Position numbers and translations under genes: made by a program. This document shows, one piece after another, positions 14,255 through 40,161 of a stretch of DNA of 50,754 nucleotides; position 1 is the first letter of the stretch, and each line of letters opens with the position of its first letter. Origin of the DNA: Azoarcus sp. (lineage in GTDB: Bacteria; Pseudomonadota; Gammaproteobacteria; Burkholderiales; Rhodocyclaceae); the NCBI GenBank assembly GCA_031277975.1, contig JAITLI010000007.1:1-50754 (forward strand). Direction: 5' to 3'. The notes beneath the pieces are model-generated. The model made no database searches, had not been told where the DNA came from, and saw only the letters and a program-made list of their open reading frames with translations.

Positions 14255-14737
14255 TCAGGCGTTGCCGCCAGAGTGGCGCGGCGCGATGGGGAAGCAACGG
14301 TCATAGCCGAGATGGAAGATGAAGGCATAGGCCACGTAAGCCAGCGCCAGCCCGGCATCCGCCGCCAGCGCCGCCAGCCAGTCCATGTTCGTCCACGCCA
14401 TCACCACCGGCAGGGTGAGCGCGACCAGGCTGCTTTCAAAGGCCAGTGCGTGCGCCACCCTCAGCCGCAACGGACGGCGGTCGGCGCGGCGGCCAGTGAA
14501 TTTTGCCTCGCAGTAATCGAATCCACTATTGAAAACCGCATTCCAGAGCGCCGCGATCAGCGACAGCACGGTGAGCAGTCCCGCAGAGGAAGCCAGCGTC
14601 ACCCCGCTCGCCCAGGCGAACAATGGGGAGATCAACAGCAGCCCGCCGGCCTCGAATAGCAGAACCTGGCGCAGGCGATCGCGCGGCGAGCGCAGCGCGG
14701 GCAAAGGCACGGGCGCCGCCATGGGGATCGCCGTCAT
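14255..14737 (-). CDS. PACE-family/bacterial transmembrane pair-type membrane protein
   Basis: Four-helix membrane protein with RLRVAHALAFESSLVALTLPVVMAW and AYAFIFHLGYDRCFPI motifs. Confidence 0.7.
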   Translation of the reverse strand: MTAIPMAAPVPLPALRSPRDRLRQVLLFEAGGLLLISPLFAWASGVTLASSAGLLTVLSLIAALWNAVFNSGFDYCEAKFTGRRADRRPLRLRVAHALAFESSLVALTLPVVMAWTNMDWLAALAADAGLALAYVAYAFIFHLGYDRCFPIAPRHSGGNA

Positions 14738-16017
14738 CCGGCGCGCAACGCATCGAGTTCCCGCGCCACATCGGCGCGCGCCACGTTTTCGGCGAGATCG
14801 GCCCACGCGGCGAAATCCGCGCCGTCCCGGATCGCGCCCGCCGCCTGCCCGGCTTCGCGCGGCGAGGCAAAGCCGCGGCTTTGCAGGAGCGGACGGCCAT
14901 CGCCGCTGGCGAGCTTGAAATAGAACAGGCCATCCGCTTCGCGGTACTGCTTGAACTGCGCCCTGGCCCGCGGTTTGGGAGGCGCCTCCGCCCGCGCCGC
15001 CGGGAGCCGGTCGAGCCGCCGCAATCCGACCGCCTCACGCAAGCGGGCGACGAAAGGCGCCGCATATTTGGCACGCAACGCATCCGCGCCGCTTTTCAGG
15101 ACTTGTTCGATGCGCGCCGGTTCGGCGATCAATTCTTCATAGCGGGCGCGCATCGGCGCGATCACCGCTTCCAGCTTGTCGAACAAAGCCTCCTTGGCGT
15201 CGCCCCAAGCGATGCCCTCCCGGAAGCGGGCACGCATCGCCTCGGTTTCGGCGGGCGCGGCAAACGCCTGGAAAAGCTGGAACAAGGCCGAGCCTTCCGT
15301 TTCTTTTGGCTCGCCGGGCGCTTTCGAATCGGTGACGATGGCGAAGACCTGCTTTTTCAATTCGGCGGTTGGGGCGAAGAGCGGGATCGTATTGTCGTAA
15401 CTCTTGCTCATCTTGCGCCCGTCCAGTCCCGGCAAGGTGGCGACCGCTTCATCGACCGCCGCCTCGGGCAGCACGAAGTATTCGCCATAGCGATGGTTGA
15501 AGCTCGCGGCGATGTCGCGCGCCATTTCGAGATGCTGAATCTGGTCGCGCCCCACCGGCACCTTGTGGGCGTTGAACATCAGGATGTCGGCGGCCATCAG
15601 CAACGGATACATGAAAAGGCCCATCGTCACCCCGGCGTCCGGCTCTCCGCCCTCGGCCGCGTTCTTGTCGACGGCGGCCTTGTAGGCGTGCGCGCGATTG
15701 AGCAGGCCCTTGCCGGTCACGCAGGTCAGCAGCCAAGTGAGTTCGGGAATCTCGGGAATATCGGACTGGCGGTAAAACCACGCCCTCTCGGGGCGCAGAC
15801 CTGCGGCGAGCCAAGTCGCGGCGATCTCTAGCGTGGAACGCTGTACGCGTTCAGGATCGCCAGTCTTGATGAGCGCGTGATAATCGGAGAGGAAATAGAA
15901 ACTCTCGACATCGGCGCGCTGACTGACTTCCACCGCCGGACGGATCGCGCCCGCGTAATTGCCGAGATGGGGCGCGCCCGAAGGCGTGATGCCGGTGAGA
16001 ATGCGTTGTTGGGTCAT
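14734..16017 (-). CDS. trpS: Tryptophanyl-tRNA synthetase
   Basis: RILTGITPSGAPHLGNYAGAIRPAVEV; GRKMSKSYDNTIPLF. Confidence 0.96.
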   Translation of the reverse strand: MTQQRILTGITPSGAPHLGNYAGAIRPAVEVSQRADVESFYFLSDYHALIKTGDPERVQRSTLEIAATWLAAGLRPERAWFYRQSDIPEIPELTWLLTCVTGKGLLNRAHAYKAAVDKNAAEGGEPDAGVTMGLFMYPLLMAADILMFNAHKVPVGRDQIQHLEMARDIAASFNHRYGEYFVLPEAAVDEAVATLPGLDGRKMSKSYDNTIPLFAPTAELKKQVFAIVTDSKAPGEPKETEGSALFQLFQAFAAPAETEAMRARFREGIAWGDAKEALFDKLEAVIAPMRARYEELIAEPARIEQVLKSGADALRAKYAAPFVARLREAVGLRRLDRLPAARAEAPPKPRARAQFKQYREADGLFYFKLASGDGRPLLQSRGFASPREAGQAAGAIRDGADFAAWADLAENVARADVARELDALRAG

Positions 16018-34414: not shown

Positions 34415-34795
34415 AATTGTTCCTAAATAGGTAATTCCATAATGAGATAATGCAAAGGAGGAACCTGATGTTCCGTCATCAGTAGCCTACCGACACATGC
34501 AAAGCTGGTGACGACTTTGTGTGAAACTGTCTGGACAATGTACCTGCCCGAAAGGGTATGTCGAAACGTGAGAATCGGCAACATCTGCCAGCATCGATGC
34601 GGATGCGGGGCCAGGCTGGATGGTATGATCAACACATGTGAACTGCTGATAAACCCCGTTAATAACTTTCACAAGCCAAAGATGCTGACAGGCTTGAACC
34701 AAAAGGTAGGTGGTCGGTTGCCTCTTTTTATAGTGGAAGCACACGGACATTATGACCACCAGCGGAGAGGCGGGGTCTAACCCATCTCGTTATTC
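34415..34795 (+). other. Possible truncated group II intron 5' RNA region (domain I-like) ending near a presumptive IEP start
   Basis: Low-GC, non-coding, motif-rich sequence (CCGAAAGGGTATGTCGAAACGTGAGAATCGGCAACATCTGCCAG... GATGCTGACAGGCTTGAACCAAAAGGTAGGTGGTCGG) similar in style to bacterial group II intron 5' regions. Confidence 0.35.
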
Positions 34796-35041: not shown

Positions 35042-36355
35042 TCATCCCGCCGCGAGTTTGCGCGCCAGCTTCTCCGCCGCCGCCCGCCGCCCTTGCCGCG
35101 CCAGCGTCAGATAGTCCGCGCCCAGCGCCACCGCGCCCCGCAAGCCGGCATACGTCCGGTCGCCGATCATCCGGTCATGCACCGGATGCGAGACGGTGAG
35201 GAGCGGCACGCCCAGTTCCCGCGCGACTTCTGTTTCGAGCGAGCTGGCGAAGATCAAATCCGCGCCGCTGCCGCACAGGAGATCGGCGATTTCGCCGCCA
35301 TCGCCCGTCGCGTGAGCCGCGCCGCCGAAGTCCACCGGGAGCGCATCTTCTTCGCCGCAATCGGTGTAGATCGCCGTCCGGATGTCGACGGCGGCGAAGC
35401 GGGAAAGAAAGCCGCCAATCCTGAGCACGGTCTCGGAATCGCCGACGATGGCGGCGCGCTTGCCCGCACCTTCGTCGAAATAACGATTCGCGGCACCGAG
35501 CAGGAAGTATTCCGCCAGCACTTCTTCCCGTTCCAGGAAACGTTCCGCGCCCGTGGCGTCCAGATCAAGCCGCTCCACCAACGCTTGCGCGAACAAGCTG
35601 ACTTCTTCGATGCCCAACGGCGCGGCGTCGAAGATCAATTGCGGAGTACCGTATTTTTTTTCCAACCGGGCGGCGATCGTTTCTCCCCAACGGGAAAAGA
35701 CCAGATTGAGAGCGGCATCCGACAATGTGCGCAGGGCGGCATGCCCGCCCGGACCGAAAAAGCTGTTGACCCGCAAACCAATGGCTTCGAGGATGCGGCG
35801 CAATTCTTCCAGATCGCCCTTGTAGTAAGGATCGCCGCCGGGGAAAAGGCCGAACAAATTCACCAGCGGGCGCTCGCCGCCTTTCTCCCGCAACCCGCGC
35901 ACCGTTTCCAGTTCCGGCAAAGCGTCGATCAGGTCGAGGAAAACGCGCGTGTAGCCGCGATGGATGTCGCCATGAAAACCAGCAATGTTGCTGCCGATGA
36001 CCTGCAAGCCTTGTTCAGCGGCCTCGCGCGCCATGCCGATGAGATCGTCCCCCACCATGGCGCACTCGCAGCTACCCACCACCACGTACAGACGGCCGTC
36101 CATCACCTTGACAGTGTTCTTGATCTGCTCGCGCAGGCGCGACCCACCGCCGAAAATCACCTGCTTGTCGATGATGTTGGAGGATGGCACGGTCTGGGCG
36201 ACGGTGTATCCACCCCTGTCCCGGTACGCCAGCGCATGTTGCATGGCGCAGCCCGCATTGGCCTGCACGATGGGAACGACGCCCTCGATGGCTTCCAGCG
36301 TCGCCAGCGCGCCGTGTAGCGCGCAGCCCGCGCGCGGATTCCTGATATTGCCCAT
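35042..36355 (-). CDS. Nitrogenase component 1-like subunit (NifK-like, retains three N-terminal Cys)
   Basis: NPRAGCALHGALATLEAIEGVVPIVQANAGCAMQ...GRLYVVVGSCECAMVGDDLIGM aligns with the NifK cluster-binding region; ATG at 36355 one base after the upstream stop. Confidence 0.85.
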   Translation of the reverse strand: MGNIRNPRAGCALHGALATLEAIEGVVPIVQANAGCAMQHALAYRDRGGYTVAQTVPSSNIIDKQVIFGGGSRLREQIKNTVKVMDGRLYVVVGSCECAMVGDDLIGMAREAAEQGLQVIGSNIAGFHGDIHRGYTRVFLDLIDALPELETVRGLREKGGERPLVNLFGLFPGGDPYYKGDLEELRRILEAIGLRVNSFFGPGGHAALRTLSDAALNLVFSRWGETIAARLEKKYGTPQLIFDAAPLGIEEVSLFAQALVERLDLDATGAERFLEREEVLAEYFLLGAANRYFDEGAGKRAAIVGDSETVLRIGGFLSRFAAVDIRTAIYTDCGEEDALPVDFGGAAHATGDGGEIADLLCGSGADLIFASSLETEVARELGVPLLTVSHPVHDRMIGDRTYAGLRGAVALGADYLTLARQGRRAAAEKLARKLAAG

Positions 36356-36356
36356 T

Positions 36357-37742
36357 TCAGCGCACTTCCCGCTTGACGTGCCAAGCACCGTTTTTTTTCA
36401 GCCAATTCTCGCTGTACACCTCCCGCACCCGCTCGCGAAAACCGGGCACTGGTCTGCTCAGCGCTCCGGCAAAGGCGCGAATGCCCTCGAATCCGTAATA
36501 GAGCGCGTCGTGTAACGAAACCGGCCTTGCCCCGAAACGGGCGGCGAATGCGACCTGCTCCGGGCCGACGTAATAATCGGCCCCCGTTCTGGCGAGCACG
36601 TTGGCAACCTCGAAAGGCTGCCCCACCGCCACCAGAGCGGGAATTTCGCCCGCCGCCTCCAGGCGGGCGAGATGGGCGCGGTTGTTCAGATCCACGCTAC
36701 CCAGAGCCACCCCCGCCACTTCGCCGCCCAGATCGCGCACCAAGGCGCCGAAGCCCTCGACCTGCGCCACATCGACTTGCAGGAACACGCGCTTGCCCGC
36801 CAGGGGCCGGGCGGCAAGCACGTCCCGCAAGGCATCTTCCTGTTGGCGCGCATAGATGTCCGCCGCGTCCGCGGCGTCAAAGATCCCGCCGAGTCCGGCG
36901 ATGAACCGGCGCGTCGCCTCCAGCCCGATGGGCGCGGGCAATTGCGGATACGGCACGTCGAAGGCCGCTTCTAGGCCAAGCCCGAAATATTCGCTTTCAT
37001 CGCGGTTGAGCGATACCGTGGCGCGCGCCCGCCCAGCCTTGCGAATGTGCGCCGGCGAGGAAAATCGCGGCAGGAAATTCCACGCGACGCCAAGCGCTTC
37101 GAGCATCGCGGCGACGGCGGCGAGGTTGCGCGCGTTCTCATTGACCGCCAGCAGATTGAGGAAATCGCCGCGCTCTTTGCCGCCGCCCGGCTCTTCCGCC
37201 AGCCGCAACAAGGCATGAAAGGCGATATCGCAGCCGGTCAGCGGCGACTTCGAGCGGAAGCCGTCCGTGTTCACATGCAGGATCGGGACGGATGTTTCAT
37301 CCGACAATTCCTGCAATACGGCGCTGACATCGTCGTTGTTGATCGCCACCACCGGCGTGCCGACGACGAAAACCGCCGCCGCGCCTTCGCCGATGGCGCG
37401 CAGGATCGTTTCGCGCAGGGGCGCTTCGCCGCCGAGGATGGAATCGCGTTCGCTCAGGTTGACCGAATACCAGCGCGCGCCGTGCGCTTCGGCGAGGGCG
37501 ATGGACGCCGCCGCGCAGCCCGCCGCGCCGTGGACTACGATGGCCGTGTCGCGGATGCCGCGCAGCACGGCAAAAGCCGAAAGAATGTCGTCACGGGCCG
37601 CCTGGGTGAAAGTGCGCACACGCTGCGGAATTTCCTCTCCGGCGGTATCGCCGATCAATGATGACAACGTGCCATGGTAATGGCTGATCGTGCCGCTGCG
37701 TTTTTCGCGGGTCGGCGCGCTTTTTCCTTCATGAAATGCCAT
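36357..37742 (-). CDS. Nitrogenase component 1-like subunit (NifD-like, degenerate ligands)
   Basis: IVVHGAAGCAAASIAL...SERDSILGGEAPLRETI...VVGTPVVAINNDDVSAVL parallels NifD; TAATG overlap with the NifH-like gene. Confidence 0.82.
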   Translation of the reverse strand: MAFHEGKSAPTREKRSGTISHYHGTLSSLIGDTAGEEIPQRVRTFTQAARDDILSAFAVLRGIRDTAIVVHGAAGCAAASIALAEAHGARWYSVNLSERDSILGGEAPLRETILRAIGEGAAAVFVVGTPVVAINNDDVSAVLQELSDETSVPILHVNTDGFRSKSPLTGCDIAFHALLRLAEEPGGGKERGDFLNLLAVNENARNLAAVAAMLEALGVAWNFLPRFSSPAHIRKAGRARATVSLNRDESEYFGLGLEAAFDVPYPQLPAPIGLEATRRFIAGLGGIFDAADAADIYARQQEDALRDVLAARPLAGKRVFLQVDVAQVEGFGALVRDLGGEVAGVALGSVDLNNRAHLARLEAAGEIPALVAVGQPFEVANVLARTGADYYVGPEQVAFAARFGARPVSLHDALYYGFEGIRAFAGALSRPVPGFRERVREVYSENWLKKNGAWHVKREVR

Positions 37743-38689
37743 TACGCCGCAGCCCTTTCCGCACCGTTTTCCAGATTGAATACCCGGTCGCCCCAGTCGC
37801 GCGCCCAGTCGCGCAGGTCGCCGACCCCGAGCGGTTGCGGGATCACGAGTTTGTCGTTCTCGGCGATGTGTCTGGCCAGTTCGCGGTAGATGCCGGCGTG
37901 TTCGCTGCCCGGATTGGCCTCGATCACGGTCTTGCCGTAAAGCTCGCTCTGCGACACCACCAGCGCGCGCGGCACATAGCCCGCCACGGGGACGCCGGTA
38001 CGGGCGGCGAAATCGTCGATGATGGCATTGGAGTAAGCGGCGGAAAGCCCGTTGCCGATGATGCCGCCCAGCCTGGCCCCGCCGGTCGGCGCGTATTTAT
38101 TCACCGCCTTGAAAAGATTGTTGGCGGCGTAGATGGCCATGAAATCCGACGACGTCACCACATAAGCCCGGTCGGTGATGCCATCGCGAATCGGCACGGC
38201 GAAGCCGCCGCAGACCACGTCGCCGAGTACGTCATAGAGGACGTAATCCGGTTTGAATTCTTCGAAAAGCTTCAACTCTTGCAACAGCGTCACCGCTGCG
38301 TTGATGCCCCGTCCGGCACAGCCGACGCCGGGCACCGGGCCGCCGGACTCGATGCACAGGATGCCCTTGAAGCCGGTGGCGGAAATATCGGCAAGATGCA
38401 CCTTGTTGCCGCCGCGCACGCTGTCCAGGACGGTGGGCAGGTAGTGATTGCCGCGCAGGGTATTGGTGGAATCGCTTTTCGGGTCGCAGCCGATCTGTAT
38501 GACCTTGTAGCCCGCTTCGGCCAGCGCCGCGCTGATATTGGAGGTCGTCGTGGACTTGCCGATCCCGCCCTTGCCGTAAATGGCGATGTGCCTGCCAGCG
38601 CTCTGGCTCTTGGGCGCCGCCGCGGGCTTTCCGTTTCCGGCGCCGCCGCGGCCATGGAATGAAACACGGTTGCTTTCGACTTCGCTCAT
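37742..38689 (-). CDS. NifH/BchL-like nitrogenase-type iron protein (ATPase)
   Basis: HIAIYGKGGIGKSTTTSNISAALAEAGYKVIQIGCDPKSDST; [4Fe-4S] Cys in GVGCAGRGI and GDVVCGGFAVPIR. Confidence 0.92.
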   Translation of the reverse strand: MSEVESNRVSFHGRGGAGNGKPAAAPKSQSAGRHIAIYGKGGIGKSTTTSNISAALAEAGYKVIQIGCDPKSDSTNTLRGNHYLPTVLDSVRGGNKVHLADISATGFKGILCIESGGPVPGVGCAGRGINAAVTLLQELKLFEEFKPDYVLYDVLGDVVCGGFAVPIRDGITDRAYVVTSSDFMAIYAANNLFKAVNKYAPTGGARLGGIIGNGLSAAYSNAIIDDFAARTGVPVAGYVPRALVVSQSELYGKTVIEANPGSEHAGIYRELARHIAENDKLVIPQPLGVGDLRDWARDWGDRVFNLENGAERAAA

Positions 38690-38925: not shown

Positions 38926-40161
38926 TCAGGCGGCCTTCAGTTCGGTATAGATATGCCGCTCCCACGGCAGCAAATCCCCGTCGGCGTTGAAAAGATAATC
39001 AAAAATCGTCTCTTCGCCATTGGTGCAGCGGTAAAAGTCCTCGTGGCTGAAACCATTCTTGCGAAGCAGCGCATAAGTCTTCAGCACCAGGTCGTGATAC
39101 CACTCGGACGTCGGCGCGCGATGGCCTTCCAGTGCGGAGCCCGGGTTCGGATTCCATTGCAGCGGAATGGCGACGACGCCCGACTCGATCAGGAATTGAA
39201 TGCCTTCCAGCGTCGCCGCTTTCGGCTCGATGCCGGAGACGAAATAGGAGCGCACGTAGCCTTTACCGAAGACTTCCACTTCATGCAACAGCGTATCGAC
39301 CCAGTTCTTGTGGCCGCCACAGATCGCATCCTTGCCAGGGCAGATGGACTTGAAAATATTGGCGTCCCAGATTTCCATGTTGGTGGCGATGCATTCGTAG
39401 CCCGCTTCTTTGTACTTGTCGATGACTTCCAGATCAAGCGGCGCGCCGATGCAGGCGGTACCGTTGAAATTATCCCGTCCGGTGATTTCCTGTATGGTTT
39501 CGGCCACGTCGATGTAATAATCCACCTCGCGCCGCTCGGGAATGAAACCACCCGTCACCGTGAGGCGGCGATAGCCTTCCTCATAAGCAGCCTTGGTGGT
39601 CTCCGCGATCTGGCGCGGCGTCTTGATGCCCAGACCTTCGAGATCGGCAAAAGCGGCCTTGGTGGCGTTGATGTTGCAGAACAGGCAATCCAGCCCTTTT
39701 TCCTGCAAGGAACACTCGTTGCTGTAGGTGATGGTGATCTTGCTGCGCCCCACGTACTGCGCGATCCGGGACATGGCGAGACCGTCGGAAGTCTGCCGGT
39801 CATACCACTTCGGCTTGCGCTGGAAATGCACTTCGAACAGGCGGTTCTCGCCATCATTGAGAAAATAGCGTCCACCCTCGCCGGTGATGGTGAAATGCGA
39901 GCGTGGATCATAAACAACGCCAAAACTGTACCCACTCGGGTCGCGGAAGGATTGCGGCAACTTGGTCACTGTGTGCACGTTGTGGTTCATGTTGAAGCAG
40001 CCATGCACCTGCTCCAGATATTCACCGTAATCCAGCGTCCGAAGAACGGTCTTGTCGATGGCGATGCCATCATTGAACAAGCGCTCCGACAAATCGATAT
40101 TACTGAAAAGATTTTCCCGTGTCAGTGGCCTGGGGATAAAGCCTTCGGAAACCGCATTCAT
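38926..40161 (-). CDS. Radical SAM protein with atypical CX8CX2C motif, nitrogenase-like cluster
   Basis: ITITYSNECSLQEKGLDCLFCNINATKAAF; RRLTVTGGFIPERREVDYYIDVAETI; RBS AGAGGAG before ATG. Confidence 0.8.
   Translation of the reverse strand: MNAVSEGFIPRPLTRENLFSNIDLSERLFNDGIAIDKTVLRTLDYGEYLEQVHGCFNMNHNVHTVTKLPQSFRDPSGYSFGVVYDPRSHFTITGEGGRYFLNDGENRLFEVHFQRKPKWYDRQTSDGLAMSRIAQYVGRSKITITYSNECSLQEKGLDCLFCNINATKAAFADLEGLGIKTPRQIAETTKAAYEEGYRRLTVTGGFIPERREVDYYIDVAETIQEITGRDNFNGTACIGAPLDLEVIDKYKEAGYECIATNMEIWDANIFKSICPGKDAICGGHKNWVDTLLHEVEVFGKGYVRSYFVSGIEPKAATLEGIQFLIESGVVAIPLQWNPNPGSALEGHRAPTSEWYHDLVLKTYALLRKNGFSHEDFYRCTNGEETIFDYLFNADGDLLPWERHIYTELKAA

Follow-up and report, generated by a model that had tools for sequence, protein, structure and literature searches.

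An isr-like gene cluster in Azoarcus

The window analysed here is a stretch of 50,754 nucleotides from Azoarcus sp. contig JAITLI010000007.1 (assembly GCA_031277975.1). It carries four isr-like genes, arranged B-H-D-K from right to left on the minus strand and flanked by the ATP synthase operon and biotin genes (Table 1). The gene under study, D, is the third of the four and lies on the minus strand, a point on which the earlier note was silent. Pfam assigns Oxidored_nitro to both D and K and Fer4_NifH to H. For the isrK-like gene we use the ATG at 36355, which is the start used by its homologues; a longer alternative would begin at a GTG at 36388. Nif genes are also present in the same genome, on contigs other than this one. 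Neither subunit of the DK pair scores near the NCBIfam models: D falls far under the cut-offs for nitrogenase (nifD), NifE, and DPOR, as does K for nitrogenase, NifE, and DPOR, and in the BchB/BchN equivalog test P0001 scored 30.9 bits, where 490 would be needed.

Table 1. Features of the isr-like cluster and its left border, in window positions.
Feature	Position	Strand	Evidence
Group II intron D1-D4-7 match	34464-34610	plus	107.6 bits
Aldo-keto reductase C-terminal remnant, 37 aa	34891..35001	plus	78% identical; gene intact on the same side of isrK in L043
isrK-like gene, NifK-family subunit, 437 aa	35042..36355	minus	MarK 9d9u_C, E 7.5e-46
isrK stretch with three P-cluster-type Cys	36068..36325	minus	Aligned to NifK P-cluster positions
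isrK Cys96 codon	36068-36070	minus	
isrK Cys36 codon	36248-36250	minus	
isrK Cys11 codon	36323-36325	minus	
isrD-like gene, NifD-family subunit, 461 aa	36357..37742	minus	ATG start; Oxidored_nitro 190.6 bits
isrD Tyr416 codon, at FeMo-co His442 position	36495..36497	minus	MAFFT alignment
isrD Asn246 codon, at FeMo-co Cys275 position	37005..37007	minus	MAFFT and HMM alignments
isrD Cys171 codon, second Cys, unconserved	37230..37232	minus	F/I/Y in relatives
isrD Pro130 codon, at NifD Cys154 position	37353..37355	minus	MAFFT and HMM alignments
isrD Cys76 codon, retained ligand, NifD Cys88 / BchB Asp36 equivalent	37515..37517	minus	Kept in 7 of 8 homologues
isrD Asp51 codon, at NifD Cys62 position	37590..37592	minus	Asp invariant in 8 homologues
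isrH-like gene, NifH-family reductase	37742..38689	minus	Fer4_NifH 314 bits; P-loop, cluster Cys124/Cys160
isrB-like gene, radical SAM	38926..40161	minus	NF045502 variant_rSAM 439 bits; CX8CX2C: Cys150, 159, 162

The profile-HMM alignment of D spans the full length of MarD (9d9u_A, E 4e-58). An AlphaFold2 model of D, built from an 8-sequence input (mean pLDDT 71, pTM 0.73, with the N-terminal 49 residues poorly modelled), has MarD as its top PDB match (9fmg_A, E 3.3e-21, TM 0.72), followed by NifEN, DPOR, and nitrogenases. The predicted nitrogenase-like fold of D is settled, and the model is too coarse for side chains.

Relatives of the cluster were collected by scanning genome contigs once with the radical SAM protein B, which gave 21 loci. 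Many of these come from metagenome-assembled Azoarcus, Clostridiales, Synergistaceae, and Deltaproteobacteria, and one source is the isolate Pectinatus haikarae. Judging by their isolate codes, we take the genomes of the four metagenome-assembled groups to stem from termite guts. In the tree of D subunits, the window falls in a clade of seven (support 100/99) that is sister to the MarD-like group-IV subunits, and D identity within this clade is 34-47% outside Azoarcus.

Cluster ligands in D and K

As the earlier note had counted, D has two Cys in its 461 residues, Cys76 in HGAAGC and Cys171 in PLTGC. We aligned D by MAFFT with MarD, other group-IV D subunits, and the NifD and NifE encoded in this genome, and by profile HMM with MarD (PDB 9d9u). 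D shares the fold and the H-DK architecture of Mo-nitrogenase NifDK. Of five cluster ligands in NifD (Cys62, Cys88, Cys154, Cys275, and His442), it retains one. The by-eye reading in the earlier note had the first P-cluster Cys absent, SLNRDESEYF as the FeMo-co Cys region, and Tyr in place of the FeMo-co His in LYYGFEGI. The alignments agree on all three, with Asp51 at Cys62, Asn246 at Cys275, and Tyr416 at His442. Its replacement of the ECP-type Cys by Thr was off by one residue: in the HMM alignment Pro130 faces the MarD Cys, and Thr129 precedes it. The alignments also support its inference that D would not bind a FeMo-co-like cofactor in the canonical way.

This ligand pattern goes beyond chance, because seven of eight homologues retain Cys76 and none of the eight has Cys or His at any other ligand position. 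Cys171 is unique to the window; the other homologues read F, F, F, F, F, I, and Y at this position, and it is thus no ligand of the family. Ligands that had been displaced but conserved, a possibility raised by the earlier note, were sought in the alignments and none was found. MarD His429 faces Ala413 in the HMM alignment and Leu414 in the MAFFT alignment, there is no further conserved Cys column, and the conserved His71 and His176 do not lie at nitrogenase ligand positions.

MarD binds an Fe8S9C cluster through Cys270 and His429 (PMC12552129). Since MarD is the nearest solved structure to D by both profile and fold, D could in principle come from a nitrogenase variant or methylthio-alkane reductase in which displaced ligands hold both a P-cluster and an Fe8S9C-type cluster. 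The sequence contradicts this: the three P-cluster Cys of MarD, Cys270, and His429 face Asp51, Cys76, Pro130, Asn246, and Ala413 in the HMM alignment, and no other Cys column is conserved. We therefore regard such a variant as hardly tenable. Membership of D in MarD proper is ruled out by the missing ligands. MarBHDK (PDB 9fmg, 9d9u; PMC12552129) has the group-IV fold and cleaves C-S bonds, and MarK is the top PDB match of the window K, but MarDK keeps all six P-cluster Cys and the Fe8S9C ligands whereas the window D keeps just one D position.

The earlier note held that nearly all metallocluster ligands had been lost. This stands for D alone, where Cys76 is kept, but not for the complex, since K keeps three P-cluster Cys. 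Cys11, Cys36, and Cys96 of K occupy the three NifK P-cluster positions and are conserved in all relatives except Pectinatus. Together the subunits thus offer a four-Cys K3+D1 set, enough for one [4Fe-4S] cluster, and, Pectinatus aside, every clade member readable at all four positions keeps all four Cys.

DPOR has a comparable arrangement: BchN supplies three Cys to its cluster, and BchB an Asp (PMC11423573). This BchLNB complex (3aek) has no FeMo-co ligands either. We take the fourth DPOR ligand to be Asp36 of BchB, and the Asp of the BchB motif HGPQGD (3aek_B) falls in the column of Cys76 in HGAAGC here. When scored against the family profile, the HGPQGC variant 3aet reached 69.6 bits, above the 64.0 bits of the wild type. 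Because of the DPOR-like K3+D1 arrangement, the shared column, and the higher score of 3aet, the cofactor of DK is likely to be a single [4Fe-4S] cluster, as in DPOR. The two systems differ in that BchB gives Asp36 instead of Cys, the DPOR substrate is a tetrapyrrole, and DPOR has no radical SAM partner. The four-Cys K3+D1 cluster predicted from this comparison makes the cluster type open to point mutation and metal analysis.

Could the ligands have been lost by drift in a decaying pseudogene? The cluster does adjoin part of a group II intron and an aldo-keto reductase gene that is broken. The frames are intact, however, dN/dS is ~0.2-0.25 for both D and K, and the same pattern recurs in homologues of several phyla, all of which contradict decay and make it very improbable. 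Against four relatives, D has a dN of ~0.17-0.24 and a dS of ~0.68-0.96, as expected under purifying selection, and this low dN relative to dS indicates a conserved gene and no decay.

Comparison with isethionate reductase

IsrBHDK, formerly NflBHDK, is the isethionate reductase of Rhodobacter capsulatus (Morimoto et al. 2024; PMC11423573). R. capsulatus mutants without B, H, or DK do not grow anaerobically on isethionate, and isethionate lyase restores the DK mutant, which shows that sulfite is released (PMC11423573). An SsuABC-type transporter is essential together with IsrBHDK, and R. sphaeroides gains growth from isrBHDK plus ssuCAB (PMC11423573). IsrDK co-purifies, shows an Fe-S spectrum, and is redox-active; B is essential as well (PMC11423573). 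IsrD has its sole Cys at the Cys88 position, Pro or Ser at Cys154, and no Cys275 or His442, and IsrK has three Cys; the other NifD homologues CfbD, MarD, NfaD, BchN, and BchY all have three (PMC11423573). The authors concluded that IsrD is unable to bind FeMo-co canonically and placed it sister to the MarD-like subunits (PMC11423573). Cofactor-ligand loss of the IsrD type is therefore already known from that 2024 publication (PMC11423573), and the window is a further case.

The window shares with IsrBHDK the order B-H-D-K, the radical SAM protein B, and, through its relatives, a tie to SsuABC-type sulfonate transport. Its D retains just the Cys88 equivalent (Cys76) of the three P-cluster Cys, has Pro130 at the Cys154 position (Ser in Pectinatus), and lacks the FeMo-co ligands Cys275 and His442 (Asn246 and Tyr416), and its K has the three P-cluster Cys (Cys11, Cys36, and Cys96). 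Cys124 and Cys160 of H are spaced by 36, as are Cys99 and Cys135 of IsrH. There are also differences. One is apparent: the published residue at the Cys62 position is Arg (PMC11423573), whereas our alignments place Asp51 there, invariant in eight homologues. Moreover, the window cluster lacks a transporter and has another host, its nearest named relatives being Azoarcus MAGs. The window cluster is probably a counterpart of R. capsulatus IsrBHDK, a likeness that we draw from the published description of its gene order and residues.

Sulfonate context and proposed function

Several relatives of the cluster carry or adjoin sulfonate genes. An ABC transporter lies inside the cluster, between B and H, in Azoarcus loci L048, L049, and L051 and in deltaproteobacterial L055, and in L059, where the contig ends, the transporter ATPase and permease are in place. 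The in-operon binding protein falls in the SsuA family, which serves aliphatic sulfonate transport, and scores under the curated cut-off. The Pectinatus cluster directly follows a glycyl-radical enzyme, (2S)-3-sulfopropanediol dehydratase (1500.7 bits, cut-off 1000), and its activase, and has SsuA-type transporters on both sides. The in-operon SsuA-type transporters and the Pectinatus dehydratase support sulfonate C-S cleavage. The 237-bp gap between B and H in the window holds no transporter and no transporter remnant; SsuA-like binding proteins occur elsewhere in the window's genome. For Xsc, as another sulfonate route, this genome gave no match above the family cut-off. A NIR_SIR gene is present on contig C143, with scores that fail to tell sulfite from nitrite.

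We consider it probable that the window gene encodes an IsrD-type subunit of a sulfonate reductase in which a [4Fe-4S] cluster drives C-S cleavage of isethionate or a close sulfonate. Coupled to ATP hydrolysis, electrons would flow from H to one [4Fe-4S] cluster coordinated by Cys11, Cys36, and Cys96 of K and Cys76 of D, much as in DPOR. The cavity that takes FeMo-co in NifD would be free in D and could accept the substrate. The cluster would then reductively split the C-S bond of this substrate, isethionate or a sulfonate close to it, and yield sulfite for assimilation. B would be required, either to activate DK or to join in C-S cleavage. Given the published isethionate reductase pattern, the gene most likely has a part in releasing sulfur from sulfonates in a gut bacterium, which would extend a newly described sulfur-from-sulfonate route to a further bacterial group. 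This proposal names tight partners, with the sulfonate transporter inside the operon of relatives, and gives exact residues. Several points stand against it: our alignments put Asp51 where Arg was published, the window has no transporter, the Pectinatus context is that of a C3 sulfonate, and Pectinatus lacks three of the four ligands.

It is also conceivable that the same class of enzyme acts on another substrate, such as taurine, dihydroxypropanesulfonate, hydroxypropanesulfonate, or a different organosulfur compound. The Pectinatus relative adjoins a sulfopropanediol dehydratase gene, the operon's SsuA-family binding protein scores below the curated cut-off, and D identity is just 34-47% across the clade outside Azoarcus, all of which would suit a different substrate. 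Yet the sole tested enzyme with such a Cys fingerprint uses isethionate (PMC11423573), and we judge another substrate to be rather unlikely.

The Pectinatus variant and the role of B

The Pectinatus haikarae DK pair (L058:13027-14418 and L058:14421-15698) departs from the rest of the clade. In its D, Thr replaces Cys76, and its K has Leu and Val for the second and third cluster Cys, so that three of the four DK Cys are lost overall. The motifs of H and of both B copies are intact, and other group-IV pairs in the same genome have the usual Cys. If the Pectinatus DK works without a cluster, another component must carry out the chemistry, possibly B; with a single genome to go by, we offer this as no more than a lead. 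We think it improbable that this clade dispenses with the DK cluster and that Pectinatus cleaves sulfonates by means of a cluster-poor or cluster-free DK, with B breaking the bond.

B might carry out radical C-S chemistry itself, with DK serving as a platform for activation or as an ATP-gated electron donor; the DK cluster would then be just a relay, or dispensable. Such a division of labour would accommodate the essentiality of B in R. capsulatus (PMC11423573), the two B copies of some relatives (L051; Pectinatus), and a Pectinatus DK that lacks three of four Cys beside intact H and B motifs. However, the remaining clade members readable at the four positions keep the four Cys, and the Fe-S spectrum of IsrDK from R. 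capsulatus is redox-active (PMC11423573). We consider B-centred chemistry unlikely and continue to favour cleavage driven by the DK cluster.

Further nitrogenase-like genes were seen alongside these. Pectinatus haikarae locus L097 (G973:C1:341000-360900) holds several group-IV DK genes and ABC transporters in one 20-kb stretch, and its D gene at L097:14239-15765 pairs with MarD in the tree. Pectinatus loci L098 and L099 contain nif and AnfD/NifD-like genes.

Distribution and history of the cluster

Among 200 genomes of the family, a close homologue was found in one other, of the same genus and 75% identical, and among 399 genomes drawn from the phylum there was none. A family of the same phylum with BchB genes (f55), when searched, yielded one NifE and otherwise just B relatives that were 28% identical and lacked HDK. 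No relative was found in the viral contigs searched, and the plasmids searched yielded just distant group-IV and NifE genes. No isr gene lies beside atpC in five same-genus genomes, one of which (G595) has the cluster elsewhere. The 0.75-kb gap from bioF to the isr cluster contains no recognised intron protein gene. The scarcity of close homologues, the lack of isr genes beside atpC in relatives, the aldo-keto reductase remnant, and the intron piece fit a gain of the cluster by transfer followed by local rearrangement.

The B gene varies in number and setting. The same-genus relative L043 has tandem isrB copies (L043:13377-14612 and 14635-15870) that are 72% and 86% identical to that of the window. 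IsrB-like genes, up to four per locus, also occur in Treponema/Spirochaetaceae (L060, L061, L062, L063, L064, and L066), and no HDK genes were found in the stretches fetched for these six loci. IsrB-like radical SAM proteins may also serve in roles that do not involve the nitrogenase-like enzyme. A divergent Amidohydro_2 gene, absent from the window, lies upstream of isrB in two loci (L051:1547-3073 and L052:8095-9720; 79% mutual identity). Lastly, a long run of near-identical short repeats, with AVGKVNA/V recurring many times in one frame, occupies L078:1694-2902 (G000:C176) and immediately precedes a gene for an SsuA-like binding protein.
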